From Porogramme epimiltina (Eukaryota; Basidiomycota; Agaricomycetes; Polyporales; Polyporaceae), in assembly GCA_900155495.1 (NCBI GenBank), contig FTLJ01000071.1, positions 1 to 64,000 on the forward strand: a stretch of 64,000 bases of DNA, read 5' to 3'. Under the pieces are notes generated by a model, which had not been told where the DNA came from, made no database searches, and was given only the letters and a program-made list of their open reading frames with translations. The translations under genes were made by a program, and so were the position numbers. Of the stretch, positions 1,422 to 61,503 are shown piece after piece; the first letter of the stretch is position 1; every line of letters begins with the position of its first letter.

Positions 1422-3879
1422 CTACTGGGCCCAAGAAACACGGAGAGGCATGGCTGAGACTTCCCCGCCGTTCTTGTCTTGAACGAAGGGCACCATGACT
1501 CCTGCAGGTGCGCGCGTAACACGAAGGTTATCCTCGGGAAGTGCAAACTCGAACTTCTCCAGGAGCTCGGCGGAAGCGGCTTGGAGTTGGTACAACCTGA
1601 GCGCCGAAACGTAAGTATATGTGACCTGAGGACTTGAGCGGAGTATCGCATGCTTACGCGAAACGCCATCTAGTAGGGAGAATCCGGGAAGTTAACTCAG
1701 GGCCACGCACGCATGTATCAATGTAGTACTCACCCGATGCAAGCACGGAGTCCGGCGGCTGTAACGAAGGGTGAGTATACGTCCCAGGATACGCGCACAG
1801 GATAAGGATGCTCACAGAAAGTTAACCTGCGACAAGCGGAAAGATCTCAAAACCCATATTAGGAGGTACAGGTCAATGCACTCACAGATTGGCATACACT
1901 CCAACCTTGACCTGCTTCTCGGACTCGGGCTTGAGGAACCGCTCAGGGTTCCAGGTATCCGCGTCTTTGCCCCAGACGTGCGGGAGACTAAATCGTATTC
2001 CGTGAGCACCCTACCCATCAGCGACATAAATAACACAACGCACCGGTTGTATCCACAGATCGACATCAAGATGGGCTGTCCGGCCGAGACGGGTAGTTCG
2101 GTGATGACTTCTCCGTCCTTGCCGATAACCGGGTCCGAGAGAGGGATGATGTCATCCTTCGCAGCGACACGTTGGAGGTGGTAGGCAATCGGGTGGAACC
2201 GAAGGGTTTCCTATAGGGAAAAGGTACTTGGGCATAGATCGTCGCAGCAGCGGAGAACTGGATATACCTTAATCGCGGCGAGGACGACCTTCATCCCATC
2301 CAGATCGTCCATCGTGAACATACCGTCCCCACGTGAAGTAACCCGGGCCCGTGTTGCCCGAATTTCTTCGCGCATGCGCGCCTGGTATTCTGGGCGTTTG
2401 GAGAGCTCGTAGAGCATCCACGTCAGCGTGCTGGACGTCGTCTCGTGCCCGGCCGCGGTGAGGTTATGCATCTGAGCTAGAACTTCACCCTCGCTGAGGC
2501 GAGTACGTGCAGTCTCCGATGTATTAGCTTTGACTGGAAATTTAAATATCGAGCCTGTGGTTGAGCGCCGAAGGTCTATCTGGAAGATGCGTTCAAGAAT
2601 ACTTACTGAGCACGCTCATGACATCTCGCTTCTCCTCGCGAGAGCCGTCCCAATCCTCTGCGCTCGCTTTGTAAAGAGGGCGCCCCACCTCCTCAAACAA
2701 CGCGTTCAGCCTGCGAAGGCGACCATATAGGGCCGTCGGGGTGTATTTCATCAGATTGAGAAGGGCAGCAGGAAGGTATGGCCACGTGGCGCGCCACAAT
2801 AGAGTGCCAGCGCTGGGGTATAGCCCAGTATCCTTGCTAGATGAGATTTTATATTCAGTGTCTGAGGAGTAACTGCTGATGGATGTGCGAGGGCTCACAA
2901 AACGGTGCTGTACTCTCGTGCGAGCGGACTGTTCATGTCGTCGAGGGCGTTGAAGTGGTAGTCGAATGAGGCTGTAAGAGCCATTTAGTCGGGGACCATA
3001 AGTGAACTCGGGAAATTCACGCGCCTTCGCCCACGATGTCGAGGGCAGAGCGCGCCAGCCACTTGTCTACGAGGATGACGGCATCTGACTCCCCGTTGAT
3101 CTCCGCTTTCCATTTCTCGACAACCTTGGCCCGATGTCAGCATAAATACAACCACCATAAGCAGCCAATAGCATATACCTTCCCAATCGTCCTTTGGAAG
3201 AGTGGGAGGAATTCCTTAAGCTGCTGCGCGCTGAACGCGGGGTTCATGACCTTGCGGTGGCGGTGGTGCGTCTCACCTATGGTAACAAGCATCAGCTTGG
3301 CCCTTAGAAGTACGAAAACGCTCTCACCTTCAGCCGCGAGAATACCTGGCCCTACCGAGAGGGAGGTGAAGTGGCTAACTTCTACCCGTTTAGGATAGTT
3401 GTACCCCGACTTGTGCAAGATGTGTTGCATGGCCTGAGAGAACGTTAATATCCAACCCCCAGGAGCACGAGAGTTGGGAGGTGCCTAAGCGAACCTTCGG
3501 ATCGGCGGTCATGATCTCCTCCACCTACACCCAACCCAGCGTCCGCAACACGAGTTTAGAGAGCATGATGCATCGAATTGAGAACAATGCGCACCCCGAA
3601 ATAACTGTGAATACGCCAGGTGGAACCATACTTGCGCATCCACTGGAAGTCCAAAGCACCGACCTCCTTCTGGTGCCAGATTTGATACTCATTGCCTGTA
3701 CATGTGGTCAGATAACCCTTATGGGTATGGGACGCGACTACGTTCAACGACTCACCGAACAATTTCGATGCTGCTTCCGGACCACGGAGGTTGGCGAGAT
3801 GCTTGCCACGCAACACATTGCGGACGAAGGCCACAAGAGCCACGGCGGCGCATACGAGGACAACAGAGAGGACAGTCAT
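1422..3879 (-). CDS. Cytochrome P450 (family 1, copy A)
   Basis: Microsomal haem-thiolate monooxygenase; substrate unknown. Start ATG is at 3877-3879, before a hydrophobic anchor (MTVLSVVLV...). In order come LRGPEAASKLFG, an HRHRKVMNPAFS segment, the I-helix AGHETTSSTLTW, the K-helix ETLRFHP, an SICGYNR block, WNPERF and the haem loop FSAGLRACIG. The C-terminus ends PLRVSWAQ at the TAG at 1422-1424. The haem region is split over three tiny exons of 11 nt (1816-1826), 25 nt (1734-1758) and 12 nt (1658-1669), which join in frame as LTF-SAGLRACIG-WRFA. Nearly the same gene, with flanks, recurs at 10.4-12.8 kb. I see no broken motif. The family resembles agaricomycete P450s with MNPAFS and ETLRFHP signatures; I do not assign a CYP number. 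Confidence 0.9.
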
Positions 3880-3950
3880 GGCGGCGGACACAGGTGTAGA
3901 GGTAAGCTACTGAGATGTGGGCGGTGGGGAGCGACCGCGAGTGCCTCCCC

Positions 3951-3958
3951 TATTTATG
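3951..3958 (-). promoter_or_regulatory. TATA-like element of P450 copy A
   Basis: CATAAATA on the minus strand, about 72 nt before the ATG at 3879. The same element lies at the same distance before copy B (12900-12907). Confidence 0.5.
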
Positions 3959-6658: not shown

Positions 6659-6675
6659 TTTCTCGTCGTTGACAT

Positions 6676-10398: not shown

Positions 10399-12831
10399 CT
10401 ACTGGGCCAAAGAAACACGGAGAGGCATAGCTAAAACCTCCCCGCCCTTCTTGTCCTGAACGGAGGGCACCATGACTCCTCCGGGTGCGCGCGAAACGCG
10501 AAGGGTGTCCTCGGGAAGGGCGAACTCGAACTTCTCCAAGAGTTCGGCGGAAACGGCTTGGAGTTGGTACAACCTGAACGCTGAGCGTAAGCATAATTGA
10601 TGGGACTCGAGGAGAGGATCGGATGCTTACGCGAAGCGCCATCTGGAACGGTGTAGAAGTAAGCTCTGGGCCATCCACGTACGTATCATTGTAACACTTA
10701 CCCGATGCAAGCCCGAAGTCCGGCGGCTGTAAAGAGGAGTTAGTATACGTCCTAAGATTTATATGCCGTATAACACCCACAGAACGTTAACCTGAGAGGA
10801 ACGGAAAGAAATCAAAACCAATACCGGGGGGCACAGGCCGACACACTCACAAGTTAGCATACACCCCAACTTTGACTTGCTTCTCGGACTCTGATCCAAG
10901 GAACCGCTCGGGGTTCCAGGTATCCGCGTCTTCGCCCCAGACTTGCGGGAGACTAAATAACTATGAGTACGCTTACCATCAGCGAACGTACATAACGCAA
11001 CACACCGGTTGTATCCACAGATGGACAGCAAGATAGGCTGCCCGGCCGAGACAGGCAGTTCAGTAATGACTTCTCCATCCTTGCCAATGACCGGGTCTGA
11101 GAGAGGGATGATGTCGTCTTTCGCAGCAAAACGTTGAAGGTGGTAGGCAATCGGGTGGAACCGAAGGGTTTCCTACACGAAAAAATGCTTAGCCATAGCT
11201 CGTCGCAACAGTGTAGAAATAGAAATGCCTTGATCGCAGCGAGGACGACCTTCATGCCATCGAGGTCGTCCATCGTGAACACACCGTCTCCGCGTGAAAT
11301 GACCCGGGCCCGCGCTTCCCGAATTTCTTCCCGCATGCGCGCCTGATATGCCGGGAGCTTGGAGAGCTCATAGAGCATCCACGTCAACGTGCTGGACGTC
11401 GTCTCATGCCCAGCCGCGGTGAGGTTGTGCATCTGAGCTAGAACTTCACCCTCGCTGAGGCGGGTCCGCGCGGTCTCCGATGTATTAGCCTTGACTGTGA
11501 GTTTTAATGCCGTTGTCAGTGATCGAGTATTGAAGAACTATTGGGAAGATGTGATCAAGGATACTCACTGAGCACGCTCATAACGTCTCGTTTCTCCTCG
11601 CGGGAGCCATCCCAATCCTCTGCGCTCGCTTTGTAAAGGGGACGCCCCATGTCCTCAAACATCGCGTTAAGCCTCCGAAGACGACTGTATAGGGCTGTTG
11701 GGGTGTATTTCGTCAGATTGAGGAGAGCCGTAGGGAGGTATGGCCATGTCGCGCGCCACAAAAGAGTGCCACTGCTGGGGTACAGTCCGGTGTCCTTGCT
11801 AGATAGCACCGTATATTCAGCGCTCAATGAAGGACAAAAATGTGTGGGGACTCACAAAACGGTGCTGTACTCTCGTGCAAGGGGGCTGTTCACGTCGTCG
11901 AGGGCGTTGAAGCGGTAATCGAATGAGGCTATCAGAACCAGTTAGTCCGGGACCATGAGCGAAGTCGCGGATTCGTGCGCACCTTCGCCCACGATGTCAA
12001 GGGCGGAGCGCGCCAGCCACCTGTCCACACGAATGACAGCATCCGACTCCCCGTTTATCTCCGCTTTCCATTTCTCGACAACCTTGGTCCGATGTCACTA
12101 CGAATGCAACCAACGAAGACGGGCAATAGAAAATACCTTTCCAATCGTCCTTTGGAAGAGTGGGAGGAACTCTTTGAGCTGCTGTGCGCTGAACGCGGGG
12201 TTCATGACCTTGCGGTGGCGGTGATGCGTCTCGCCTATGATAACTAGTGTCAGCCTGGCGCTCAGAGTTACGAAAAAGCTATTACCTTCAGCCGAGAGAA
12301 TACCTGATCCTACCGTGAGGGCGGTGAAGTGGCTCACTTCCACCCGTTTAGGGTAGTTGTATCCCGACTTGTGTAAGATGTGTTGCATGGCCTGAGATAA
12401 TATTAGCGTCCACCCCCGGCAATTGAGATTAGTGAGGTCCCTTGACTAACCTTCGGATCGACGGTCATGACTTCCTCCACCTATATCCAACCCAACCCCC
12501 GAGACGCACATTTAGAAAGGATGATGCATGTAAGTGAGACCAGTACACACCCCAAAGTAGGTGTGAATACGCCAGGTGGAACCATACTGGCGCATCCACT
12601 GGAAGTCTAAAGCTCCAACCTCCTTCTGGTGCCAGATTTGGTACTCGTTGCCTATATATGCGTGTCAGATGAATGGTGCTGGTGGGCGACTTTGTCCAAC
12701 GACTTACCGAACACTCTCGACGTTGCTTCTGGTCCACGGAGGTTGGCGAGATTCTTGCGACCGAAGACCTTGCGGACGAAGGCTACGAGAGCGATTGCGG
12801 CGAGCACGAGGGCAACAGAGAGGACACTCAT
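10399..12831 (-). CDS. Cytochrome P450 (family 1, copy B)
   Basis: Paralog of the P450 at 1.4-3.9 kb, with the same exon pattern and flanks. Start ATG is at 12829-12831 (MSVLSVALVLAAIALVAFV anchor). Motifs seen: LRGPEATS, HRHRKVMNPAFS, AGHETTSSTLTW in the I-helix, ETLRFHP, WNPERF and FSAGLRACIGWRFA, ending PLRVSLAQ at 10399-10401. The three micro-exons around the haem cysteine have the same sizes as in copy A: 11 nt (10781-10791), 25 nt (10702-10726) and 12 nt (10631-10642). No disruption seen. Expected to be an ER-anchored monooxygenase fed by P450 reductase; substrate unknown. It is followed upstream by an F-box fragment and intact CCT3, so the whole P450-CCT3 block is duplicated. Confidence 0.9.
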
Positions 12832-16780: not shown

Positions 16781-18862
16781 CTAGCGCCGTTTAAAAAGCA
16801 GTCGCGCAGTAGGATCTGGAATGACAGCATCCAAGAAGTAGATATTATCCGGGCGCTCCATGCGATCGCCAGCGAGTTTGAAGTCGTAATTAATGATGAT
16901 AAATGCAAGGAGTACCTTCAATTCGCTCGCCGCAAAGAAACGTCCGGGGCTGTTCGTAGCAACCGCAGCGTAAGAACTCGGAAACTTGTCGACCGGAGAG
17001 TGTAGACGTACCATGCATACTGTCCGTGACCGAATGGTAGGTAATCGGCAGAGGTGTTGGTAAACTGGTGTTTGGAACCTTCGCCCTCTTCGCGTAAATC
17101 CGCAAAACGGAACGGCTGGAACGCATCAGGCTGAGAGTAGTGAGCAGAGTCGTAATGTATGGGACGGGCTGCTGCCGCAATGAGCGTGCCTTTCGGAAGG
17201 AATGTCCCATTGGCCAGTGTGATATCTTTCATGACCTTGCGGCTCAAGGAGACTAGAGTGGATCACAAGTTGGATCAGAGTGATGGAAAAGACATGAAAA
17301 CGAGTGCTTACGTAGGCTAACGCCATTGTGCCGTTGAGACTCTTTCAGGACACTGTCGAGCTTCCACATCTTCCCGATAGAGTTCTTTGTCCATCCCTCT
17401 GTAGCCACAATGGGCTCAATCTCTTCTCGAAGCTCGAGAACATGCGCCTGAGAAACAGCAAGATGGAATAGAGCTTGTATTGCACTCTGTCGAGCACCGT
17501 CAAAGGAGAGTGGGCGAGCCGATTCGGAACGTGCATGGAAGGCGTACGTTAGACGTTGTGTGGATAGAGGCGAAGTTGACGATCATGACGCGTTCCGCGA
17601 TTACTTCATTCGCTCCGCCGCGAGCAATTTCTTCATCTATGATCCACTGGAGCATATCGTTCTAAAGACAGGTAGCAGATGAAGCGTTAGGTGTCTGTGG
17701 AAAATAACAACGCGTACAGGTTTCTCCGTCCACTCATTGCCAATGTCCTTCATCTTCTCCCGCCGTTCGTTGATGTAAGGGTTGAGATACGGGAATGTGT
17801 TCCTTACTGTGTTCTTGGCGTTGCTGGTTAAGCGGCCTACGATGCTGGTGGAATGTATATAATGACGTTGAACGAATTATTCCTGCGTCCATTGAAATCA
17901 CTTACGGCCTAAAGATGGTAGGGAACAGGCTGAGAATGTATCCGTCGGTAACTACGGCCGTGGTATACTGAATTGCAAGATCTAGATAACCCTCATCCCT
18001 GCCTATTTCACATAATGCATAAGCTAAGTGAGCTGTCGTGAAGTGGGGGAGAGACACTTACACAAAGGCTCGCCCACGAAAACACGGCTGCTGGCGCGAG
18101 CGATGATCCTCTCCATAACGTGAAATGCATTGAGCTCTTTCCAACCTAGAAACATTGTGTAAGGAACATTCTTCGATAACAATTGCTAAAGCGTCCTCAC
18201 TATCATTTGGGGGATCAATGTAAGTGGGGATGGCAAGTAGCAACTCATCGACCATGTCAGGGAGGACCGCAGTAATGCCGCGCATCAGCCTTTCCCGAAT
18301 AACGTCGATATGGTACCCGTCGTCTATCGGATATCTTCCTGTCGTGTACTTGATGTTGAAAAACTGCGACCAAGGACTGTTAGTACCTAGGCCTTTAGAC
18401 GAGAGCGTGCATGGGCGGGTTCTTACATCGTCGAAGGACTCTCTGAATGATGCTTCTTCTCCGCCTCTTCTGCGTACGTCTTCGACCATTTCGGGCCCAC
18501 TAATTATCACCAACCATTGATTGGGCAGGGCTATTTTGAACACTGAGCCATAGAACTATGAGCTGTATATGACATCAGCCGTTTGAGATACGCATTGGAG
18601 CAGGCCCACCCGTTGGTATCCCTCTGAGAGGACTTTCCTGCCATCTTTCAAGTACCTGTATGTTCCAAGACACGAGAGGATAGGTACAGACGTGCCTCCG
18701 ACAGTGGGTATGGCATTGAGCTAGAGAAAAGGACAGTGTAAGTGAAGTCGGCACGATACAACCGTCCAGGAACAAACTCACTGGATCCAAGCGCCACCGA
18801 AGGAAAAGAAACGCAGCTAGCCCAGCCAAGGCTACACAAACGGATGTTGGAAGGTCTCCCAT
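16781..18862 (-). CDS. Cytochrome P450 (family 2, gene C)
   Basis: ER-anchored monooxygenase of the ent-kaurene-oxidase-like type; substrate unknown. Start ATG 18860-18862 opens a short anchor exon (MGDLPTSVCVALAGLAAFL, then RWRLDP). Later exons give FKIALPNQWLVIISGPEMV, the I-helix NFASIHTTS, LKESQR (the E-x-x-R motif), FQPFRF and the haem loop FGHGQYACPG, with Tyr where the family mostly has His. The haem cysteine codon is split TG|C by the intron at about 16950-17011. The last exon ends at TAG 16781-16783. Closest relative in the window is the plus-strand gene at 59.4 kb, which shares the SGPEM segment and the long extension before SFxExFD. Confidence 0.88.
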
Positions 18863-19359: not shown

Positions 19360-21374
19360 TCACAGGGAAGATTGACGCTTGCGGAAGAGAAGCTTCGCAG
19401 CACGGTTTGGAACGACATGCTCCGCCCAATAGATGTTGTTCGGGCGCGGGCCACCCTCGGCGAGTTTGAAATCATAGTTGACAACAAGGAAGGCGATGAG
19501 CGCCTTGAGTTCGTTTGCCGCAAAGAACCGGCCTGGGCTGAAGATTCAAAAGTCAGCACCAAGATCGTGAGGCCGGCGAAGCAAACACCAGCGGCATACC
19601 AAGCATGCCGCCCGTGGCCGAAGGAAATATAGTCCGGAGAGGTGTTGACGTATTGGTGCTTCATGCTCTCGCCCTCACCCTCCCGCATGCGTGCGAAGCG
19701 GAATGGATCGAACGTGTCGGCGCCAGCGTAGAGAGAATCATCGACATGTGTTGAGTACGACGCGGCGCCGATGAGTGTGCCCGCAGGAATGAATGTGCCG
19801 TCAGGAAGAGTGATGTCCTTGAAGACCTTGCGATGAAGCGCAACTGGAGTGAGAGTTAGATCCGCGATTTTCATGCACGACGGTCCAAAGGGAATGCAGG
19901 GCGAGACGCACCGACGTTTATTCCGTTGAGCCGTTGGGACTCGCGGAGGAGGCTATCAAGTTTCCACATCTTTCCCAAACCGGCTTTAGTCCAGCCCTCG
20001 CCCTTGACGATAGGCTCGATCTCGTCCCGGATGGGTTGGATGTATTGGGGAGCCGCCGCAAGATGATAAAGAGCATGCGTGACGCTCTGAAGAGTAGGTT
20101 AGACGGCGATAGTTGAAGATTGTATAAACACTGACATTGGATGACGTGTGGATTGCAGCGAAATTGACGAGCAGGACGCGTTCGATTATAGAGTCCATGG
20201 AGCTGTTCCTTGGGATCGCTTCCTCAATGATCCATTGTACCATGTCGTTCTATGGTAGAGAGGACGGTAAACCTATGTGCGAAGCTCGGACGTATAACAA
20301 CCCTTACCGGCTTCTCAGTCCAGCCGTCTCCAAGTTCTTCCATCTTGGCTAGCCGTGCTTCGACGATAGGCTTAAGATGAGGAACAGTCTTGCGCAGGAC
20401 AGTTCGCGCGTCACTGGTCCACGCCCCGATAACACTGTGCACTGTTATCAATTTACGGTTACAGAACAGATGATCTATAAATACTCACGGCTTAAGGAAC
20501 CGAGGGTACATCTTCAGGCGCTCCCTGTCCGACGACACTGCGATTGTGTACTTGATGGCTAAATCGATGTACTCCTGGTTGCGACCTGTAGGCACCGATT
20601 CAGGCAAACGAGATCGTCGGATAACGAAGAGTAGACGCACAGGCGGGTGCTCCAACGAATACACGGTTGCTGGCCCGCGCTACGATCTTCTGCATAGTCG
20701 GGAATGCGTGCACGGTTGTCCACTCTGTACGGTACGTGAGTCGCGACAACCAGCGGAGGAAGAGCACCAGCTACTAACCATTGCCCTTTGTAGGAATGTG
20801 AGCCGGAACGGCGAGCGAGAGCTCGTCGAGGACATCGGGGAGGACAACGGGGAGAGTGCGCATGAGCCGCTCGCGGATGATGTCGACATGGTAGGGGTCA
20901 TCGATCCAGGTCCGCCCAATCGTGTACCGAGAGTTGAGGCCTTCCTCGGCACCCTCGATGAAGGAGACCTCGTCGTCGGGCCGCTTCCGGATGTCTTCGA
21001 CCATCTTGGAGCCGTTAATGATAACCATCCATTGGTCGAGCATGGCGACCTTGAATACAGAGCCGGGGTACTGCGAAAAACATACCAGGTTTGTATCGAT
21101 AGGGTTGGGGGGCTGAGGTAGTGCGCACCTTCTGGTAGCCTTCGGCCAAAATACCCTTCGCGTTGTGCAAGAAATTGTAGGCGGAGATATACGACAGAAG
21201 AGGTGCGGAAGGCCCTCCCATGGTGGGTATGGAGTTCAGCTATGTCGAGGAGTAAGCGACATCAACTCTTCGGCAGATAAATGAGAGACATACTGGGTTC
21301 ATCCGCCATCGAATGACGTAGACGGCGACGAGAGAAGCCAGAAGAGCATAGACGATGGTGTGAGTGTCCTCCAT
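19360..21374 (-). CDS. Cytochrome P450 (family 2, gene D)
   Basis: Start ATG 21372-21374 (MEDTHTIVYALLASLVAVYV, RWRMNP). The next exon carries the family signature SIPTIGG/TVGGPSAPLLSY type segment, followed by FKVAMLDQWMVIINGSKMV, EGLNSRYTIGRTWIDDPYH, NFAAIHTSS (I-helix), LRESQR, KVFKDITLPDGTFIPAGT, FDPFRF and the haem loop FGHGRHACPG. The cysteine codon is split by an intron near 19.55-19.60 kb. It ends LLFRKRQSSL at TGA 19360-19362. It is a close paralog of gene E, sharing the anchor and the YTIGRTWIDDPYHVDIIRE segment, so the pair is a fairly recent tandem duplication. No broken exon found. Predicted ER monooxygenase, substrate unknown. Confidence 0.9.
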
Positions 21375-22812: not shown

Positions 22813-24830
22813 CTAAGCCTTCGCAATCTGGCGCTTCCGGAAGAGTAGCTTCGCTCCAGGATCGGGGACGACGTGTTCCGCAAAATAGAGGTTGCGAGGG
22901 CGCATGCCGCCGCCGTCCGCAACCTTGAAGTCGTAGTTGACGACGAGGAATGCGACAAGCGCCTTGAGCTCGTTCGCAGCGAAGAACCTTCCAGGACTGC
23001 AATATAAGCCCGTCAGCCCACCATCATGGGAACGGCGAGAGGAAGTCGCGCAAGGAACCTACCAGGCGTGGCGACCATGGCCGAAGGGAATGTAGTCCGG
23101 AGAAGTGTTCACAAACTGGTGCTTCATGCTCTCGCCCTCGCCGGCCCGCATGCGCGCGAACCGGAAGCCATCGAAAGCGTCAGCGCCAGAGTAGATCGCG
23201 TCATCGCGGTGGGTGGCGTAAGATGCAGCGCTTATGAGCGTGCCCGCAGGAATGAAAGTGCCGTCGGGAAGGGTGATGTCCTTGAAGACCTTGCGGTTGA
23301 GTGAAACTGCAGGCGGGGTTAGAGAGATGTCATGTGAGAGGATATTGTGGGACGCACGCATGCCGATGCCGTTATAACGCTGCGATTCGCGGAGGAAGCT
23401 GTCGAGTTTCCACATCTTGCCCATTGCTGCCTTTGTCCAACCCTCTGCCTTGACAATGGGTTCGATCTCGTCCCGGAGGGGTTGGAAGTATTCCGGGGCC
23501 GCTGCGAGATGGTAGACGGCATGGGTGACGCTCTGGAGTGGATGTGAGAGAAAGCAACTGAGAGTTAGGGGAATGAGAGTACGTTAGAAGAGGTGTGAAT
23601 CGCCGCGAAGTTGACGAGCAAAATGCGTTCGACGATCGACTCAAGCGAGCTGTTCCGTGGGATTGCCTCTTCAATGATCCACTGGGCCATATCGTTCTAC
23701 AGAAGGAGCAACCATCAATGCTTGCGCTTCAAATGCCTTCACCCATGAGACCTTACCGGTTTATCAGTCCAGCTGTCTCCCAATTCTTCCATTTTCGCCA
23801 GCCTCTCCTGAATGATGGGCTTGAGGTGCGGGACACTCTTCCGCAGGATCATCCTCGCGTCGCTAGTCCAGGCGCCGATGATGCTAGGTACAGCGTGAAT
23901 GAGCATATGACCGCAAGAATAGAAAACACGCGACGTACCCCTTGAGGAACCACGGGAACATCTTCAGACGCTCCCTGTCCGACGAGATCGCAATCGTGTA
24001 CTTGATCGCAAGATCCAAGTACTCTCCATTACGACCTAATCCATACGGTGAGCAAAAGGACGAGGGGCAGATGCCACAGTCGACGTACAAGCAGGTGCAC
24101 CCACGAAAACGCGGTTGCTTGCGCGCGCAACGATCTTTTGCATGGTCGGGAATGCCCTCACCGTCACCCAATCTAGATGCGCCGTTAGTTAGAAACAAGA
24201 AACATAAAAATGACTATTTCTCTTTCACCCACCATCACCGTTGACGGGAATGTGATCCGGGACAGCCAACGTGAGCTCGTCGAGGACGTCCGGGAGGACA
24301 ACCGGGAGAGTGCGCATGAGTCGCTCGCGGATGATGTCGACATGGTATGGGTCGTCGATCCAGGTCCGCCCAATCGTGTACCGGGAGTTAAGGCTCTCCT
24401 CTGCGCCCTCGATGAACGAGACCTCGTCGTCGGGCCGCTTGCGGAGGTCATCAACCATCTTGGAACCGCTGACGATAACCATCCACTGGTCGAGCATCGC
24501 GACCTTGAACACGGAGCCATGATACTACGGAGGGAGAGGTGTTTTAGCGGTGGAAAGGGGATGCTACTCGATACTGCGCACCTTTTGGTAGCCCTCAGAG
24601 ATGATGCCTTTCGCGTTGTGTATGAAGTTGTATGCGGAGATATAAGAAAGCAAAGGAGCGGATGGGCCTCCTACTGTCGGGATGCCGTTAAGCTAGGAGA
24701 GCACGATTGGGATGAGCCAAATATCCTGAAGAATCTAAGTAGGACGTACTGGGTTCGTTCTCCATCGGATGATGTAGACTGCAACGAGCGTTGCTAGGAC
24801 GGCGTAGACAATAGTTTGGGTGTCCTCCAT
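22813..24830 (-). CDS. Cytochrome P450 (family 2, gene E)
   Basis: Start ATG 24828-24830 (MEDTQTIVYAVLATLVAVYI, RWRTNP). Exons give FKVAMLDQWMVIVSGSKMV, RYTIGRTWIDDPYHVDIIRE, MQKIVARASNRVFVGAPLC, AQWIIEEAIPRNSSLE, NFAAIHTSS, LRESQRYNGIGM, KVFKDITLPDGTFIPAGT, FDGFRF (the PERF position) and FGHGRHACPG. The last exon reads GRFFAANELKALVAFLVVNY and ends LLFRKRQIAKA at TAG 22813-22815. The haem cysteine codon is split TG|T by the intron near 23.0-23.06 kb. It is a close sister of gene D. All expected P450 motifs are present and in frame. Substrate unknown. Confidence 0.9.
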
Positions 24831-28604: not shown

Positions 28605-29085
28605 TACCATGGGAAATGCCCCTCCTCGGCAAATTTGAAGTCATAGTTAAGAATGAGAAATTCAAGGAGCGTCTTGAGCTCGCTCACTGCGAAGAAACGG
28701 TAGTGGCTGTGTACATCCATGTCAGTCATCCCACCCCTCCCTCATGGACGGGAACACGCGAAAAAAGAACTTGGAGAAGAAGAGCAGGAAGTGCGACACA
28801 CCAGGTATGCCGTCTGCTCCCACACGGGATATGGTCGACGGACGTGTGCACCATTTAATGCTGCGCGCCATCACCCGATCCCACAGTCACATCTACTGCA
28901 ACGCGGCGTGCTCAGGCGGCCGCGCGAACTTGAAGCGGAATGCATTGAACACGTCTGTGTCGATATAGCGGGGATTGTCGTGGTGCGCCGCGAGCTCAAC
29001 TGAGTGTCCCCCGTGAGAGGCGCGTCCCGTTTCCCAGTGCCACGTCCTTCATCGCCCTCCGGATCACGATCACTATGCGGGGTCG
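28605..29085 (-). pseudogene. Relic of a P450 C-terminus (gene-L-like)
   Basis: Decayed last exons of a family-2 P450. On the minus strand: RRAMKDVALGNGTRLSRGTL (29.0-29.08 kb), a VFNAFRF match to the PERF region (about 28.93 kb), a MVHTSVDH-IP segment with an in-frame stop before it, and GRFF..SELKTLLEFLILNY (28.62-28.71 kb). The haem loop itself is corrupted and the piece has no 5' exons. The wording is closest to the gene at 46.1-48.4 kb (AMQDVTLCDGTRLPKGTL, LKTLLAFLILNYDFKF). It lies between array genes F and G. Confidence 0.8.
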
Positions 29086-40475: not shown

Positions 40476-42555
40476 TCAGATTTTCTGTCGCTTGCGGAAC
40501 ATGAGCTGTCCACTTGGAGAGGGGATGATGCTTGTGTCAAAGTACACATTCCGCGGGCGTTTGCCGTCGCCCCCGAGCTTCAAGTCGTAATTAATGATAA
40601 GGAACGCGAGCAGCGCTTTGAGCTCGTTCGCCACAAAAAACCTCCCGGGACTGTGCAAAGCTCAGGAAATGTACGAGCGGCAAAAGCGGGCGACGCACCA
40701 TGCTTGCTTTCCGTGCCCGAATGGGATGTACTCCAGCGACGTGTTCACGAACTGGTGCTTCATGCTTTCTCCCGCCTGCTCTCGCATGCGCGCGAACCGG
40801 AAAGGGTCGAACACTTCCGCGTCTGGGTACACCGCTTCATCGTGGTGCGTTGCATGAGTCGCGGCGGCGAGGAGCGTGCCCTTGGGGATGAATGTTCCGT
40901 CGCTGAGCGTGATGTCCTTGAGCGCCATGCGTGAGACGGACACTGTTGCCCGAAGAGTGTCAACAGGCGAATATGGCAGAGGACAAAGGGAGTTGTCGTA
41001 CGGATGTTGAACCCATTGAAGCGTTGCGACTCCTTCAGTAAGCTGTCCAGCTTCCACATCTTGCCCAGAGCCCCCTTCGTCCACCCCTCTGTAGTAATGA
41101 TGGGCTCGATCTCTTCGCGAAGGGGAATAAACCACTCCGGGTGCACTGCGAGATCGTAGAGCGCGTGTGTGATCATCTGTCTCTGGGGTGAGTCTCGGGA
41201 GGGTGGTGCAATGTGTGTGCTACGCACATTAGACGTAGTGTGGATTGCTGCAAAATTCACCAGGAGAATACGTTCTGTGATCTGTTCGTCTGTGTAGTTG
41301 CGCGGTATGGCTTGCTCGAGTATCCATTGGAGCATATCGTTCTAGGGCCGTGTCTTAGCCAAGGTGAACAGCTTCATTAATGCCGCCATCTTACTGGTCG
41401 GTCGTCCCAGCGATCCCCAAGCTCCTTCAACATCGCCCTGCGTTCGTTTAGCAGCGGTTTGAGATACCCGGTGGTCATGCGGACGTTCTTCTTCACACGA
41501 CTCGTCAGAGTCGAAACGATCCTGGGCAACGAACGTGGGTTCAGGCGCGGACGCGCCATGGGACAGCATAAGATGCACCTACCGGCGGAGAAAGCGTGGA
41601 GTAAAAAATAAGATAGTCTGATCCCTGACTGCGTCTGTCGTGAAGTTTATTGAAAGGTCCAAATACTCTTGATTACGGCCTGGCAGGTAAAGTTGTCATT
41701 CAAATTTCACAGCAACTCGGGGTTCAGCCGATGCCATACGCACAGAGGGGAAAACCAACAAATGCGCGGCTGCTCGTCTGTGCCACAATATTCTGCATGG
41801 TTGACCCGGTCGTGACTGTCGTCCATTCTACGGGACACTATGTTTTAGATGCCATTATTACAACCTTGATAATGAAGGGGCACGCTTACCATCGCCGATA
41901 GTAGGAATATAGTGCGGCACAGCGACTCTGAGCTCATCAACGACTTCCGGGAGGACAACAGGGAGCCTCCTCGTGAGCTTCTCACGAATAATGTCAATGT
42001 GATACGGGTCGTCGGTTGGTGCACGCCCGAGAGTATACCCAAGCTTCAAGAACTAGGATGGCGAGTTAAGCCAGAAATTCTCGAGGAAGAGTATAAGATG
42101 GTCACACCTCTTCGACGGCTTCCAAAAGGGACATCTCATCATCGGGACGCTTCCGCACATCGTCCACTAGCTTCGGTCCACTGACGACCACAAGCCAACG
42201 ATCGCTGAATGAGATCTTGAAGACGGAGCCATGGTACTGTGCAAAACATATCGTTAGCCTAATCGCATACGGAAAGCAGTCGAGCCAAAGGCACCTACCC
42301 GGTGGTAACCCTCTGTGATCAAGTCCCTTCCGCGGAACATGAAGTTTGCGGAGCTTATAAACGAAAAGATAGGTGTGGAGGGCCCGCCGATGGTCGGAAT
42401 AGATCTCAGCTAGAACATAGAGAGTTCATAACAACCATCGAGAGGTAAACGGGGGCACTTACTGGATCTGACCACCATGCAACGACCCATGCCACGACGC
42501 AAATCACTACAAGGGCGGAGGCGAGGGTCTGCGTTTGGAGGTCTTCTAAAGCCAT
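40476..42555 (-). CDS. Cytochrome P450 (family 2, gene J)
   Basis: Start ATG 42553-42555 (MALEDLQTQTLASALVVICV, WWSDP). Exons give LRSIPTIGGPSTPIFSFISS, FKISFSDRWLVVVSGPKLV, LGYTLGRAPTDDPYHIDIIRE, IVAQTSSRAFVGFPLC, MLQWILEQAIPRNYTDEQ, NFAAIHTTS, LKESQRFNGFNI, ALKDITLSDGTFIPKGTLLA and FDPFRFARM. The haem loop is FGHGKQACPG, with Gln at the classical Arg position. It ends LMFRKRQKI at TGA 40476-40478. The cysteine codon is split near 40.655-40.70 kb. The truncated copy at 44.83-45.19 kb is its nearest relative, then gene M. Its 3' flank holds the transposon. No disruption found; substrate unknown. Confidence 0.88.
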
Positions 42556-44833: not shown

Positions 44834-45190
44834 TCAGATTTTCTGTCGCTTGCGGAACATGAGCTGTCCACTTGGAGAGGGGATGATGGTTGAGCCGAAG
44901 TACATGTTCCGCGGGCGTTTGCCGTCGCCCGCGAGCTTGAAGTCGTAGTTGACAATAAGGAACGCCAGAAGCGCCTTGAGTTCGTTCGCCACAAAAAACC
45001 TCCCAGGGCTGTGCAGAGTTTAGGGAATGTAAGAGCGGTAAACACGGGGGACAGACCATGCGTGCTTTCCGTGCCCGAACGGGATATACTCTAGCGACGT
45101 GTTCGCGAACTGGTGCCTCATGCTTTCTCCTGCCTGCTCTCGCATACGCGCAAACCGGAAAGGGTCGAACGCTCCCGCGTCTGGGTACTG
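44834..45190 (-). pseudogene. Truncated P450 C-terminus (gene-J-like)
   Basis: Only the last two exons remain. FDPFRFARMREQAGESM, then LEYIPFGHGKHAC split by an intron, then PGRFFVANELKALLAFLIVNY and LMFRKRQKI with stop TGA at 44834-44836. The match to gene J ends abruptly at about 45190 in the codons before FDPFRF, and unrelated DNA follows. There is no anchor, I-helix or K-helix, so no enzyme can be made. The preserved frame and haem loop suggest a recent truncation. Confidence 0.88.
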
Positions 45191-46136
45191 GGCGCCCCCC
45201 GAGGCGGGGAGACGCATCGCTTCTTCACATTCTGGCGCGGGAGGAGGTCGTCGCTCTTGCCCTTGGAAAACGCGTCTACTTCGCCTCTGGGGAATAAGGG
45301 ACGGGCTGTGGGAGGGGCGGTATGGATAGTGGGAGCGGCTGGGCGCAGGCCTAGGAGGAACGGAACGACGGAAACGCGCGTGATGATGACCATGGCGTTT
45401 GAAAACATCATGAACGAGTGCTTGGTGAATACACCTAGGGAGGGAGTGAGTGAGAGGGCAAGGACGGGCTCATGGTCGTGACCGCAGTAAAGAGAGAGTG
45501 GACTCAGCGGGCGCAGCCGTGGCCGCAGTGACTGCTTTTGCGTCAACATCCGACTCCGCTGTTTCCGCACATAACTTGTCCGCAAGATCAGTATTCGATT
45601 GCATGTCGGAGAAATACACGCACCACACGGTAAGCCTTATGAAGTGCACTTAAAGACTTCACTGTAGCTTATGGCATGGCAATCAGACACTTTGAGGTGG
45701 CCCTCATATGGACGCTTGCCCCATACGCTACTCCCCGAAAGCCGAACATCGTTTATAGCCACCAGTACCGAGTTAGCTTGCCGTGTGGGCCGGAGCTGGT
45801 GTCACGTTGGAAACCACATGGCAGTGATCACTGGTGGGTAGCGAGAAGACTCGAAAGTCGTCGAGAGCCGAGTCCAAAAAAGTCAGATGCCGGACACGTG
45901 ACAGCCACCATCGGGCGTCTAAATTATCTTCGACTCCGGGTACATCGGAAAAGGTTGAATGACGAGTGCTTCACCATTCGACATTCACGAATCAGCCGCA
46001 AGCTCTGGTAGTAAGTAGTTCAACTTTTCTATGGAGATAATGAATCAAAATAACAAGAATCCGCCATTCCTGACATGCATCTAAGGCTAAGTCCTCCCCA
46101 GACACGACGCATGCCACGGTCCACCTGTGACTATGT
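45191..46136. other. Spacer before P450 gene L
   Basis: Unrelated DNA adjoining the truncated P450, with no recognisable gene. A tRNA-like dispersed sequence (copy 4) lies at 45843-45925. Confidence 0.5.
45843..45925 (-). repeat. tRNA-like dispersed sequence, copy 4
   Basis: On the minus strand: TTTAGACGCCC, GGTGGC, TGTCACGTGTC and CATCTGACT, in the same order as copies 2 and 3 but with a decayed B box. Confidence 0.4.
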
Positions 46137-48380
46137 TCACCGGTACGCTACATCTTGTCGTTTGCGGAACATTAGCCTCGCCGACGGGTTCGGTATAATG
46201 GCCTCTGCAATGTGGAGGTTGGGCGGCCGCGCGCCGTCTCCGGCAAACTTGAAGTCGTAGTTGAGGATGAGGAACGCAAGCAGCGTCTTGAGCTCGCTCG
46301 CCGCGAAGAACCGTCCAGGGCTGTACGTCAAGGTGAGCACCACGCATCCCTCCATGCACAACTACAAGGCACAACGAAAGAAGGGGAGAGGGGATAACGA
46401 CGGAGGTCTAACGCACCACGCGTGCCGCCCGTGCCCAAACGGGACATAGTCCACGGACGTGTGCACCATCTGGTGCCGCGCGCCCTCGCCCACGCCAGCG
46501 CCCGCACCCGCACCCGCCGCGGCACGCCCGCGCAGCCGCGCGAAGCGGAACGCGTCGAACGCGTCCGGGTCCGCGTAGTGCGCCTCGTCGCGGTGCGTCG
46601 CGCGCGACGGCGCCCCGACGAGCGTGCCCTTCGGGAGGCGCGTCCCGTCGCAGAGCGTCACGTCCTGCATCGCCTTCCGGATCACGCTTACTGCGCGGGG
46701 GAGGGGAGGGGGAAGGGGGGGTCAGCGTTGGCACGTCGCGGGAGGGGAAGGGGGGTGCACTGATGTTGATCCCGTTGTAGCGCTGCGACTCCTTGAGGGT
46801 GCTGTCGAGCTTCCACATCTTGCCGATCGCGGCCTTCGTCCACCCCTCCGCGGCGACGACGGCTTCGATCTCTGCGCGGAGCGGAGCGATGTACTGCGGC
46901 GCAGCCGCAAGGTCGTACAGCGCGTGGGTGACGCTCTGCGGGCGCGAAAGGGGCCACCGCTGTTAGCGCGGCACGCGGGAGTGGGAGGGCAAGGCAAGCT
47001 CACGTTCGACGAGGTGTGGATGGCGCCAAAGTTGATGATGAGGATGCGCTCCGCGACGAGTGCGTCGGGGCTCTGGCGCGGGACGGCCTCGTCCAGGACC
47101 CACTGCAGCAGGTCCGCCTGTGCGCCACGCGCGTTCTTTAGCCGCGGGCATCTCGGGCGCGGGCGGCGCGAGTTGTGGCGGTATACGCACCGGCTTTTCT
47201 GGCCATTCCGAGTCTGCGTACTCGGCCATTTTGGCCTTGCGCTCGTCGATCATCGGTTTTAGCATTGATACGCAGCGGTCGCGCGTGGAGGTCGCCCTGC
47301 TGTAGAGCGCGCCGACAACGCTGCATCGGCGAGGAGTTTGCGGTCAGTAACAGCGCGAGCGTTTGGATAGGGCCCTTTCTCACCTTTTTAGGAACGGAGG
47401 AAACATGTTGATGAGGTACTTGTCCTTCATGACGTCCAGCGTGAAGTTGATAGCCAGATCAACATAATCGTCGTCTCTACCTGTCCGCGCCGCGAGCTCG
47501 TCAGCAAGCGACAGGTGCGGCACGCGGACACACGGACATAACGGCAGCCCGACGAAGACCCTATTGCTCGCGCGCGCGACAATCTTCTGCATCACATTCA
47601 CCGTGTCCACGGCCACCCATTCTAGCGCCCGCACGTCAGTGCCGCCCACCCCGCGGGCCTGGGGCCGCTCTAATGGAGGCAGAGCCGGAGAGGCGCACCG
47701 TTGTCCGCCGCGGGGATGTGGTCCGCGACCGCCTGCATGACCTCGTCGGCGAGCGCGGGGAAGAGCGCGGGGAGCCCGCGCGTGAGCTTGTCGCGCACGA
47801 TGCCGACGTGGTACGGGTCGTCGAGCGTGTCGCGCCCGAGCGTGTGCTTCATTTGCAGGGCCTGTGGGCCAGACAGGTGCAGGGTGAGTAGCTTGGAAAG
47901 TAGGGAGAGGGCGCACGCACGTCGTCGGCGGCCTCCCCGAACGAGAGCTCGTGGTCGGGCCGCCTCCGGAGGTCTTCGACCATCTTGGGGCCGGTGACCA
48001 TGACCATCCACTGGTCAAAGAAGGCGACCTTGAATGCAGAGCCGTAGTGCTGGGTGCCTGATGTGTTATTTGAGTACGGAGGGCACCCGGGAGTGACGCG
48101 CACCTTTTGGTAGCCTTCGGCCAGGATCTCTGCACTGCGGAACAACATGCGGAACGCTGTGAGGTAGGACAGGAGTGGTGCAGATGGACCGCCGACTGTC
48201 GGGATTGCGCGAAGCTGTATTCGAGGGATCGGGATCAGGGACATGAGAGGCGGTATGTCAAATACGCCACGGTTAGATGAGAATCTATATCGGACCCACT
48301 GGATGCATGCGCCATTTTACGACATAGAGCCCAATGGCTAACGAGAGGCCCAGGTAGACCCACGACTGGAAATCTTGCAT
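46137..48380 (-). CDS. Cytochrome P450 (family 2, gene L)
   Basis: Start ATG 48378-48380 (MQDFQSWVYLGLSLAIGLYV, KWRMHP). Exons give LRAIPTVGGPSAPLLSYLTA, FKVAFFDQWMVMVTGPKMV, MKHTLGRDTLDDPYHVGIVRD, IVARASNRVFVGLPLC, LLQWVLDEAVPRQSPDAL, NFGAIHTSS, LKESQRYNGINI, AMQDVTLCDGTRLPKGTLVG, FDAFRFARL and FGHGRHACPG, ending LMFRKRQDVAYR at TGA 46137-46139. The loop before the haem carries an extra Ala/Gly-rich stretch (GRAAAGAGAGAGVGEG) absent from its paralogs but echoed in the relic at 32.5 kb. The cysteine codon is split near 46.32-46.42 kb. Higher GC than the F-I array. Substrate unknown. Confidence 0.88.
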
Positions 48381-49283: not shown

Positions 49284-51474
49284 TCACGACGCCTGCCGCT
49301 TCCGGAACATGAGCTGCCCGCCCGGCGCGGGCACGACGCTCGACCCAAAGTACACGTTCCGCGGCCGCGCCCCGTCCCCGCCCAGCTTCAGGTCGTAGTT
49401 GACGACCATGAACGCGAGCATCGCCTTCAGCTCGTTCGCCGCGAAGAACCGTCCGGGGCTGCATGCGCTCAGTCAGCACCTCCGCGCGGACCGAGCAGCC
49501 GACCGTGTGTACGCACCATGCGTGCTTGCCGTGCCCGAACGCGATGTACTCGAGCGACGTGTTCACGAACTGGTGCTTCGTGCCCTCGCCCGCGCCCTCC
49601 CGCATCCGCGCGAAACGGAACGGGTCGAACCGCGCCGCGTCCGGGTACACCGCGTCGTCGTGGTGCGTGCCCCACGCCGCCGCGGAGAGCAGCGTGTCCT
49701 TCGGGATGAACGTCCCGTCGCTCAGCGTCACGTCCCGCAGCGCTAGCCGCGTTACGGACACTGTGGGCGCGCGTGGGGGGAGGGGAGAAGGAGAAAAAAG
49801 GAGGCGTGAGAATCTTGGCGCTGCGCGCGGACGGACGGGAAGGCAGGAAAGGAAAGGGGACGCACTGAGGCCGATGCCGTGGAAGCGCTGTGACTCCTTG
49901 AGCAGGCTGTCCAGCTTCCACATCTTGCCCATCGCTGCCTTCGTCCACCCGTCCGCAGCGACGATTGGCTCGATCTCCGCGCGGAGCGGGCCCATCCACT
50001 CCGGGTGTGCCGCGAGGTCGTATAGGGCATGCGTGATGCTCTGTAGGGAGGAGGGAGAGGGCGCGCGTCAGTCCGCCGTCCGTCCCGTCCGGGAGTACGA
50101 GCGCGAGGGAGAAAGCGCGCGACGTACGTTAGATGACGTATGGATCGCCGCGAAGTTGACAAGCAGAATGCGCTCTGCGATACCCTCGTCCGTGCTCCGT
50201 CTCGGGATCGCTTCCTCGAGTATCCATTGTAACATGTCGTTCTGCGGTGCCTGTTCAGCTCTGCTCCCGGCGCGCGCGCGACGCGGCGACTCACCGGCCG
50301 GCCCTCCCAGCTGTCACCAAACTCCTCCATCTTCGACCGGCGCGCGTCCAGCAACGGCTTGAGGAACCCGGCTGTGGTACATACGTTCTTCTTCGCCCCG
50401 CTGATCAGCGCCCCGACGAGTCTGTGCACATGCAAGACCCGTTAGAAGCCTCGCTAACATGCACGAGGACGGCGCGCGAGACGGCTCACGGGCGGAGGAT
50501 GTGCGGGAAGAAGATGAGGATCGTCCGGTCCTTGACGACGTCCATCGTGAACCGGATCGCGAGGTCGAGATAGGCCTGCTTGCGGCCTGTGCCGCGCATA
50601 TGCATCAGCCTTCGGACGCCCGGATCGCGTAGAAGAAGCGGGTACGCACACAGGGGCGTGCCGACGAAAACGCGGTTGCTCGCGCGCGCGACGATCTTCT
50701 GCATCGTCGGCATGGCCGATACCGTCGTCCACTCTGCATCGCGCAGGCGAGTTAGTGGCGACAAGACAACATCAAGACCGAATTGAGTGCGGGGAACGCA
50801 CCGGCGCCGTGGGTGGGGATGTAGTCCGGGACGGCCACGGTGAGCTCGTCGATCACGTCCGGGAGCACGACGGGGAGCGTGCGCATCAGCTTCTCGCGGA
50901 TGATGTCGACGTGGTACGGGTCGTCGAGCGACGCGCGCCCGAGCGTGTATTTCATCTGCAAGAACTGGTCGCCCAGAGGGGTCGACGTTGGGCACCGACT
51001 GTCACTCTGAAGATGCTGTCATAGCGCACCTCTTCTGTGCCCTCCATGAACGAGAGCTCTTCGTCGGGCCGTTTGCGTAGCTCGTCCACCAGCTTCGGGC
51101 CACTGACGACGACCGTCCACTGGTCGAGCAGCGCGACCTTGAATACAGAGCCATGGTACTATTCGCAGTGCACGCTCTTGTCAGCATAGATAAAGGGCTT
51201 CGACAAGGCCGGGACACACCCGCTGGTATCCTTCCGTGATCAAATCCTTTCCGCGGCGGAGGTAGTTGAACGCGCTGATGAACGACAGGATGGGCGCGGA
51301 CGGCCCGCCCACGGTCGGGATTGACCTCAGCTACACCCAGACATGTCAGGAATCGCGCCCTTGAACGGGGAGAGGGGAAGCACGCACCGGGTCAGACCGC
51401 CACCGCACGACATACGCGACGACGCAGACCGCCGCGAGAGCATATAGGAGCGCCTGGGGGTCCTCTACGATCAT
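49284..51474 (-). CDS. Cytochrome P450 (family 2, gene M)
   Basis: Start ATG 51472-51474 (MIVEDPQALLYALAAVCVVA, RWRSDP). Exons give LRSIPTVGGPSAPILSFISA, FKVALLDQWTVVVSGPKLV, MKYTLGRASLDDPYHVDIIRE, IVARASNRVFVGTPLC, MLQWILEEAIPRRSTDEG, NFAAIHTSS, LKESQRFHGIGL, ALRDVTLSDGTFIPKDTLLS and FDPFRFARM, then FGHGKHACPG. The last exon is GRFFAANELKAMLAFMVVNY, ending LMFRKRQAS at TGA 49284-49286. The cysteine codon is split near 49.46-49.52 kb. Nearest to gene J by its C-terminus and to the array genes by its anchor. It is the outermost minus-strand member. Substrate unknown. Confidence 0.88.
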
Positions 51475-58409: not shown

Positions 58410-59395
58410 AGTGGTGGCCCGAGCGGGACGTGCGCTGGGCTAGGGTGCGGACGTGTCCAGGGCGGGGCGGGGACGGAGAGGGAGGTGGTGGGTGTTGGGG
58501 ATGTTGGCCAAGGCCGGACTCGCCTGGCTGAGAGAGAGTGTGATGACTGCCCATCGCGCCCACCGCGCCGTCCCTTCCGGCCAGGCACAGCCTGCCGAAA
58601 TCGGAAAGCCTCAATTACGATGAACCGCCCCGCCGCTCCCGCGATTTGCCTCCTGCCAGAGCCCGCCCGGCCAGGCTGGTGTTCTCACTCGCCCCCTTCG
58701 CCCCCCCATACCTGCCGCCACGCCCCAGAGCCGACCTGGCCACCGCGGCCGACCCCCACGCGCCGCGCACCGGCAGACGTGCCTGGTGCCTGCCCCAATC
58801 GCTGCATCACCCGCGACTCCAGGTGGTCTCTCACCTCCTGCCCAAACATGGCGTGGTCTTTCGGACACGTACGTACGCCTCCGCCTCGACGTCTCTCCCC
58901 GCATGCGCTCGTGTCCAGCGACCTCGCCCCGTTGGTAAGCACCCCATCCAATCCCTGTGCGCCAATTCATTCCGCCACATGGTCGTCCTCCCGGCCCGCC
59001 CACCCGTCAAGCTGTGCATCGCCTGTGGTTCAATGTTCGAACCCTCCCCGCGACGTGTTTCCGTCTTCATTTTACTCGGCTACCATGACCCACCCAAGCC
59101 CCCGACATACCGGTTTCACAGATAGACTTCGCTTCGCTTATGTGCCTCCCGGCGGCACCGATCAATCTTCGGTCAGGGTTTCCCTATGTTTTGGAAAACG
59201 CGCTCGTCAGCAACGCTCTAGTGTGGAACCATTGCCGTCGTAATGCCTCGAATCGTCGGTCTCTCAAGCCCTCCCCCTCCTGCGCATTCCACAGCTTTGT
59301 CATAGCGTGGAAATGAGCACCTACATGTCGCACGAGGGTCGCGCTGAGCAATGTCATATATATTGCCAGTCGCTGCAAAGTGGCACCAGACAGCT
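58410..59395. promoter_or_regulatory. Divergent promoter region, deubiquitinase and P450 gene N
   Basis: About 1 kb between two start codons facing away from each other. A TATATAT lies at 59356-59362, 34-40 nt before the P450 ATG. Long frames here (for example 58338-59243 plus) overlap the deubiquitinase start on the other strand and lack motifs. Confidence 0.5.
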
Positions 59396-61503
59396 ATGAC
59401 TGACTTCCTGACACTCTTCTGGGTACTCTTGGCTGCCCTTTCTTCCATTCTCTATCTTCGATGGCGGTTGAATCCAGTGAGTGACCACCTCGGCCGAATC
59501 ACCATGCACGTCGGACTGATAAAGCTCGTTCCTAGCTCCACGCCATACCCACTGTCGGAGGCCCCTCGTTGCCGATTCTCTCGTATATCGGGGCGTTTAG
59601 GTTCGTGACGAACGCCAGGCAGGTTCTATCCGAAGGGTACCGACGGGTACGTCTGGCCACTCCACGCCGAGCGAGGCGTCACTCACGCCCTCGAGTGCAG
59701 TTCTACGGCTCCGCGTTCAAGATCGCGCTACCTGGCCAATGGCTTGTCATCATCAGCGGCCCCGAGATGATCGAGAACTTGAGGAAGCGAGGCGAAGACG
59801 AAGTGTCCTTCCAGGAGTTCTTTGACGAGGTGAGAGTGCTCCATCATGAGGCGTCACTTGACAGCCCATTTCTGGCCGCAGATGTTCAATGTCAGGTACA
59901 CGTCAGGAAGAGCCTCGGTGGACGACTCGTATCACGTCGAAGTAGTCCGGGACAAGCTGATGCGCAGTCTTCCAACCGTCCTACCTGCTATGACCGATGA
60001 GTTATTGCTTGCCATCCCAGACTATATCAATCCCCAGGGCGACGGTGAGTGCCGAAGAGTATCTATGCAATCTCAGACCCAATTTGATGTGAGCTCTTCA
60101 GATTGGGTGGAGCTGAATACATTTCACACCATGGAAAGGATCGTCGCCCGTGCGACCGCTCGCGTCTTTGTGGGTGCACCCTTGTGTGAGTGTTTCACTA
60201 GCATATGCACCATCCTCGTCTCATGTTTCTCAAACAGGTAGGGATGAGGACTATCTGGACCTGGCGATCCAATATACGACGGCCGTGGTTATCGACGGTC
60301 AGATCCTCAACCTACTGCCTACCATCCTCCGGCCGTGAGTGGAGGCCTGGCTTTCTTTGTGTCTGGATGCATGTCTCACCATACGTGAAACAGTATCGTG
60401 GGACATTTGACGAGCAACGCAAACAAGACGATCTCAAAGACGTCGCCGTACCTCATTCGCCTTATCAATGAGCGGCGGGCGAAGATGGAGCAATACGGCG
60501 ACACTTGGGACGGGAAGCCTGTGCGTATTCTGAACATGTGGACCCATCGAACTATGTATAGCGCTTGATACCGCACCCGCAGAACGACATGCTCCAGTGG
60601 TTGATGGAAGAGGAAGTCTCTCGTGGCGGGAGAACCGAAGCTGTTATAGAGCGCGTCATGATCACCAACTTCGCGGCGATCCACACGACGTCTAACGTGC
60701 GCCTCTTCTCTCCCTTGTATCCGCGCACCCTCACCTGATGCGAGTCTCCAGAGTGCGACACACGTCCTATACCATCTAGCAGTGGACCCAAAGGTCGTAC
60801 GAGCACTCCGCGAAGAGATCGAGCCTCTGGTCGCCACGGGAGGGTGGACAAAGAGCTCCCTAGAGAAGATGTGGAAGCTCGACAGCGTGATCAAAGAGTC
60901 CCAGCGGTACGACGGCATCAACCTAGGTACGCCGCCGCCGACTTACCCCGCCTCCCTCACCTCACCCTATACTGAACGCCAAACAGTGTCCATGGACCGC
61001 AAGATCCTCAAGGACATCGTCCTCCCGGATGGCACCCTCCTGCCCAAGGACACGCTCGTCGCCGCTGCGGCGCACCCGACGCACCACGACGCCGCGCACT
61101 ACCCCGACGCCGACGCCTTCCGCCCGTTCCGCTTCGCCGACATGCGGCGCGCCGGCGGCGAGGGCACCAAGCACCAGTTCACGCACACCTCCCCAGACTA
61201 CGTGCCATTTGGCCACGGCCGCTTTGCGTGGTGCGTCCCCGCTTTACCCTCTCCTCCCCCTCCCATCTCCGCCTGCACACGGACCGGGCGGCTGATGTGA
61301 TGCTTACGGATAGCCCGGGGCGGTTCTTCGCGGCGAGCGAGCTCAAGGTCCTCCTCGCGTTCCTGGTCGTAAAATACGACTTCAAGCTCGCCGGAGGGCG
61401 CGTCGAACGACCGCAGAACATCTATTTTGCCGAGGCTGTGGTCCCAGACCCGAATGCGCGGGTGATGTTCAGGCGGCGTCATGGCGCCGTGGCGCGGTCG
61501 TAG
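59396..61503 (+). CDS. Cytochrome P450 (family 2, gene N)
   Basis: The only plus-strand P450. Eleven exons (59396-59476, 59536-59646, 59701-59829, 59882-60044, 60102-60185, 60238-60334, 60394-60520, 60583-60696, 60752-60926, 60987-61230, 61314-61503) sum exactly to 504 aa. Motifs: MTDFLTLFWVLLAALSSILY anchor, IPTVGGPSLPILSYIGA, FKIALPGQWLVIISGPEMI, ARVFVGAPLC, NFAAIHTTS, IKESQRYDG, ILKDIVLPDGTLLPKDTLVA, FRPFRF and FGHGRFACPG. An upstream in-frame ATG at 59351 was rejected because it would place the TATA box inside the coding region and adds 15 residues that gene C lacks. The cysteine codon is split TG|C. Closest relative is gene C, 41 kb away on the other strand. Substrate unknown. Confidence 0.93.

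Follow-up and report, generated by a model that had tools for sequence, protein, structure and literature searches.

The window analysed here comprises 64,000 nucleotides of contig FTLJ01000071.1 from the polypore Porogramme epimiltina (contig C55, 64257 bp, of the genome searched, which holds 41.9 Mb in 926 contigs), and it carries an array of cytochrome P450 (P450) genes. When homologues from the database were aligned to the DNA in spliced form, with donors restricted to GT or GC and acceptors to AG, the result was 13 complete P450 genes within positions 1422-61503, designated A to M (Table 1). All 13 models are open, with 10-15 exons and neither a stop nor a frameshift. Each has a stop codon and an ATG, the latter at the aligned start or at most 13 codons before it, and the stop codons of genes A and M, the outermost ones, lie at 1422 and 61503, respectively. 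A preliminary description of this DNA had arrived at the same number of full genes with the same outer limits. Eleven of the genes (C-M) make up one family (family 1), and ten of these follow one another head to tail along the minus strand, as that description also held; A and B make up a second family (family 2). By our own matching of labels, the genes previously called L, M and N are K, L and M here.

The 136 introns of the models are 48-114 bp long, and 134 of them have GT-AG borders and two have GC-AG borders. Alignment scores of the 13 models ranged from 1298 to 1785. For family 1, where the query was always P0001 and the target was gene E's region or an off-target stretch, 12 shuffles of gene E's region scored 32-52, the reverse strand 40 and 10 off-target stretches 35-55; for family 2, six shuffles of gene B's region scored 38-57 and the reverse strand 38. 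A plain scan for the heme and I-helix motifs detected the two family-2 genes and none of the family-1 genes, which were missed because the heme-cysteine codon is split by an intron and the I-helix motif departs from the usual form. Over 61-15060, one minus-strand frame was scanned with Pfam and returned nothing; genes A and B occupy other frames there.

Table 1. P450 genes and P450 remnants in the window (identities are to the gene or copy named)
Feature	Position	Strand	Description
gene A	1422..3879	-	CYP5136-type P450, 15 exons; 90.5% identical to B
gene B	10399..12831	-	CYP5136-type P450, 15 exons
gene C	16781..18862	-	CYP512-type P450, 11 exons; sister of M (66%)
gene D	19360..21374	-	CYP512-type P450, 10 exons; sister of E (84%)
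gene E	22813..24830	-	CYP512-type P450, 10 exons
gene F	25781..27966	-	CYP512-type P450, 11 exons; fast sub-array F-I (EVLR, FGHGGHAC)
gene G	29274..31471	-	CYP512-type P450, 11 exons; sub-array F-I
relic r28	28610..29061	-	3-prime P450 remnant; frameshift and in-frame stop; closest to K (52%)
gene H	32792..35010	-	CYP512-type P450, 11 exons; sub-array F-I; closest to I (83%)
gene I	35963..38176	-	CYP512-type P450, 11 exons; sub-array F-I
gene J	40476..42555	-	CYP512-type P450, 11 exons; 91% identical to copy on contig C777
relic r44	44834..45193	-	open fragment of 101 aa holding only the last two exons (first nine gone); 87% identical to J
gene K	46137..48380	-	CYP512-type P450, 11 exons; lone lineage
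gene L	49284..51474	-	CYP512-type P450, 11 exons; short branch adjoining F-I
gene M	59396..61503	+	CYP512-type P450, 11 exons; sole plus-strand family-1 gene; sister of C

The E and R of the ExxR motif, the FxxFRF box, the I-helix threonine and the heme cysteine are kept in all eleven family-1 proteins. The ExxR motif reads ESQR in seven of the eleven and EVLR in F, G, H and I, while the heme motif contains ACPG throughout and FGHG in nine (FGYG in G and FGLG in I). Counts in homologues refer to the best 120 of 2148 matches. Among these 120, ESQR occurs in 86; EVLR occurs in none, which sets F-I apart from the known homologues listed. A lysine or arginine occupies the fifth place of the heme motif in 117 of the 120 and is missing from C, F, G, H and I. 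Ten introns interrupt nine of the eleven genes, and nine interrupt D and E. The I helix is of the FAAIHTSS type rather than AGxDTT. A histidine there replaces the usual acid of the acid-alcohol pair in all eleven window genes and in 115 of the 120 homologues; judged from these sequences, it is a trait of the family and not a novelty of this locus.

In the available part of PMC3990721 (Table 3), the CYP512 signature is given as an ExxR of the E-S-Q-R type (S 62%, Q 53%) with a heme motif of the F-G-H-G-K-H-A-C-P-G type, and the CYP5136 signature as E-T-L-R with F-S-A-G-x-R-x-C-I-G; the preferred intron numbers, as given in the portion of PMC3899305 at hand, are 10 for CYP512 and 13-15 for CYP5136. 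Family 1 displays the CYP512 type of ExxR in seven of eleven genes, its type of heme motif in all eleven and approximately 10 introns, and its predicted proteins fit CYP512 by motifs and intron number. As far as the accessible sources describe them, the CYP512 proteins of other basidiomycetes (Phanerochaete chrysosporium, Ganoderma and Agaricus) are alike in ESQR, FGHG[K/R]HACPG, mostly 10 introns and tandem duplication. The proteins nearest to the draft of gene E, among the matches listed, come from polypores (Epithele typhae, 67%; Fomes fomentarius, 66%). For P0001, the Fomes homologue, the structure model has a predicted local distance difference test score (pLDDT) of 91.2 and an N-terminal helix at residues 4-25, and all 50 PDB matches listed for it are P450s, with CYP51 first.

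Both family-2 genes encode ETLR and FSAGLRACIG and contain 14 introns. A and B are 43.7% and 42.6% identical to P0200, the P. chrysosporium protein named PC-PAH 4, and a BLAST search with the draft model gave 41% identity to PC-PAH 4. We take PC-PAH 4 to be CYP5136A3. With the ETLR and heme motifs, an intron number within 13-15 and at least 40% identity to a member, the predicted family-2 proteins fit CYP5136 by motifs, by their 14 introns and by identity to PC-PAH 4, and they resemble the CYP5136 proteins, as partially described in the sources above, in each of these respects.

The family-1 genes are 47-84% identical to one another. In a tree of 79 rows (the 11 window genes, 13 genes from elsewhere in the genome and 55 of the 120 homologues listed), D/E, F-I, C/M and J with two copies on contig C777 are each grouped at 100% bootstrap. 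L adjoins F-I with support of 96/72, which is under the tree's threshold. J and L are 72% identical yet do not pair in the tree, where J groups with the two C777 copies. The sub-clusters proposed in the preliminary description are thus recovered for C/M, D/E, F-I and the lone K, but not for J and L, and 11 of the 13 proteins belong to one family rather than to unrelated ones. Direct repeats follow the spacing of the genes, with a period of approximately 3.2-3.5 kb in F-I. Close gene pairs are alike in their introns also (71-86%), and the upstream DNA of H and I is 81% alike over 504 bp. Enriched P450 families of basidiomycetes, including CYP512, are reported to have duplicated after speciation, often in tandem (PMC3899305, available part). 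Unequal crossing-over would have produced the copies seen here.

Partial copies were found at two places, r28 and r44 (Table 1). A third, which the preliminary description had also listed, was not found by a masked tblastn search of the window, where the best match elsewhere had an E of 0.11, and the profile hidden Markov models of both families gave no match outside the models at E<=1 (117 and 33 matches in all). The earlier count of three relics is therefore reduced to two.

The ratio of nonsynonymous to synonymous substitution rates (dN/dS) is below 0.3 in all 16 computable pairs of the 17 tried, the L014/L023 pair being saturated. Among the eight window pairs, the values are 0.10 for A/B, 0.17 for F/G, 0.27 for H/I and 0.24 for F/I and, as rougher figures for the reason given below, 0.07 for D/E, 0.13 for J/L, 0.11 for C/M and 0.12 for L/F. 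No window pair approaches neutrality; the pairs are under purifying selection.

Elsewhere in the genome, 13 further family-1 genes were modelled on eight contigs (three on C286, two each on C777, C626 and C704, and one each on C754, C334, C285 and C532), several of them lacking exon 1, as the locus had been truncated on retrieval; another family-1 match, on C38, was left out of the models. The idea that J and its C777 copy are alleles was rejected, as the flank upstream of J is 73-87% alike and the synonymous divergence (dS) is 0.30. A Pfam search of the genome scored 92 of 517 candidates and listed none of the 13 genes of the window's own contig, so the numbers it gives elsewhere are minimum values. 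On C358 it placed no fewer than 18 P450 loci within 116 kb (about 33-149 kb), an array larger than the one in the window, and at least 8, 7 and 6 on C193, C284 and C12, respectively, all counted as loci, intact or not.

The nine P450-free stretches longer than 1.3 kb were scanned with Pfam in six frames each, with gaps shorter than 1 kb falling outside the scan. The only matches, all of a housekeeping kind, were to Cpn60/TCP-1, ubiquitin carboxyl-terminal hydrolase and Sel1 repeats. The best NCBIfam match of the Cpn60/TCP-1 pieces, which are under the whole-protein cut-off, is CCT gamma, and a leucine-rich-repeat-like match at 8307-9611 falls under its cut-off. In line with the preliminary description, no terpene synthase, polyketide synthase or transporter was detected in these nine stretches of the 64257-bp contig. 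A core synthase or cyclase beside tailoring genes, the mark of a classical biosynthetic gene cluster, is absent from the stretches scanned, and the locus is not a complete biosynthetic cluster. The earlier view of a P450-only expansion locus built by successive duplications is borne out by the lack of synthase or transporter neighbours there and by the purifying selection on the paralogue pairs.

The CCT-gamma gene lies at 14538-16284 on the plus strand and covers profile positions 13-502 of 526. A second copy at 5772-6528, also on the plus strand, is broken, with its middle missing (about 100-428). The two copies are 86-88% identical where aligned and are the two strongest CCT-gamma matches of the genome, the next having an E of 4.5e-41. 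They form part of a segmental duplication of a P450 and chaperonin block, which takes in 601-1135, 6660-7193 and the A and B gene units; the flanks searched are 86-88% identical, and the duplication reaches near the contig start. Two CYP5136-type copies within a segmental duplication, together with a CCT-gamma gene and its broken twin, are a point of difference from the CYP5136 proteins to which A and B are otherwise similar. Two direct repeats of 300 bp (52633-52932 and 53253-53552), 93% identical and 620 bp apart from start to start, sit between L and the ubiquitin hydrolase gene. The GC content is approximately 52-54% at 16-44 kb and rises to 60-66% from the region of r44 and K onwards (44001-64000).

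The density of P450 genes had been placed at the high end even for wood-decay fungi, which is not supported. Of the 16 P450 clusters reported for P. chrysosporium, cluster 5 with its 11 genes and cluster 6 with four together span 62 kb (PMC1184071, available part). The density of the window is known in kind and size because those two clusters are equally dense, the likeness being one of count and span alone (15 P450 genes in 62 kb, with at most 11 in a tandem cluster). In addition, 29 duplicated CYP5144 genes are reported on one scaffold of Phanerochaete carnosa (PMC3899305), and C358 of the present genome has at least 18 P450 loci. For CYP512 itself, in contrast, the part of PMC3899305 available (Table 2) lists at most eight duplicated genes per scaffold in six species (eight in Agaricus bisporus), counted by scaffold and not by array, versus eleven here. 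No description of this locus was found in the literature, which was searched by subject and not by organism name. The locus is an ordinary but well-preserved tandem array of a kind known from wood-decay fungi.

We consider it very probable that the array is a tandem expansion of predicted membrane-bound class II P450 monooxygenases, eleven of the CYP512 type and two of the CYP5136 type. The open frames, the single intron plan of each family, the F-I period, the purifying selection, and the presence of one truncated and one decayed copy all support this reading. Several points weigh against it. The aligner forces splice sites and could bridge a small lesion with an intron, and the 13 models are predictions from DNA. 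The CYP512 assignment draws on motifs and intron number and not on the 40% identity rule, as no CYP512-named sequence is among the best 120 of 2148 matches. The branch that holds the 11 window genes, together with eight other copies from the same genome and four Epithele proteins, is weak (71/77), so a single recent origin of the eleven is unsupported. Moreover, dS exceeds 1.3 in D/E, J/L, C/M and L/F, so these dN/dS values are rough, and the array lies near both ends of the 64257-bp contig, so its true size may differ.

An endoplasmic reticulum anchor and a P450 reductase would serve the enzymes, and the array would supply oxygenases of overlapping specificity for hydrophobic polycyclic substrates, with lanostane triterpenoids, steroids and wood extractives as candidates. 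Oxidation of triterpenoids, steroids or wood compounds by the array is plausible by analogy because a lanosterol-derived acid is a substrate of CYP512W2 and CYP512A2 from Ganoderma, which oxidise it, W2 giving several products (PMC9748899, available part), and because CYP512 and CYP5136 are among six P450 families reported to stay up-regulated for as long as Polyporus brumalis grew on wheat straw (PMC6055342, available part). The straw response, together with the identity of A and B to PC-PAH 4, favors a set of enzymes that would detoxify wood extractives and lignin fragments and is kept for its substrate breadth. The CYP512 copies are only 47-84% identical, however, so one shared role is uncertain; we regard such a set as slightly less than an even bet. 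Alternatively, the array may be the tailoring part of a lanostane-triterpenoid pathway with its cyclase elsewhere, the copies carrying out successive oxidations on one scaffold. The Ganoderma enzymes argue for this, as does the finding that 43 of the 50 PDB folds listed are sterol 14-demethylases, although P450s are broadly alike. Since no pathway partner was detected in the scanned stretches, and since polycyclic aromatics and resins are further reported substrates for oxidation by CYP512 enzymes (PMC3899305, available part), we are inclined to doubt a dedicated lanostane pathway while taking it seriously.

It is highly improbable that a large share of the copies are duplicates decaying into pseudogenes, or that they are artefacts of the assembly, for instance haplotypes kept apart. 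Two relics do lie inside the array, F-I deviate at 10-15 of 118 conserved columns compared with 0-7 in the other seven family-1 genes, and dN/dS is at its highest in H/I and F/I. All 13 frames are nevertheless open, every computable pair stays below the dN/dS of 0.3, and the closest family-1 copies tested differ by a dS of 0.30 (J and its C777 copy) and 0.34 (H/I), far above the usual level for alleles.

Within the tandem expansion, the freshest detail is the fast-evolving sub-array F-I with its altered family motifs. F-I evolve faster than L in all 12 relative-rate tests (four genes, three outgroups; p 6e-4 to 1e-9), which overlap in data and make the comparison with L alone. Seven of the 23 changes common to F-I fall within residues 402-432, just before heme Cys 442; this clustering was noticed after the fact, with no statistic behind it, and the residues form the least certain stretch of the structure model (blocks of pLDDT 63-80). 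One tentative and rather unlikely reading is that F-I are a neofunctionalised sub-array that split from an L-like ancestor and changed fast, with ESQR becoming EVLR and the basic heme-loop residue being lost. Relaxed constraint would give a similar pattern, and C too is without the basic residue of the heme loop. The changes in F-I may have altered the heme environment or the contact with the reductase, beyond the substrate pocket alone.

L and F-I offer a natural experiment, in which one copy has been conserved as its tandem neighbours drifted to altered heme-region motifs. Wood-decay fungi are reported to have 149-266 P450s per genome (PMC3899305, available part), and arrays such as this one help to explain numbers of that order. 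They also provide a natural series of related oxygenases for triterpenoid and pollutant chemistry.

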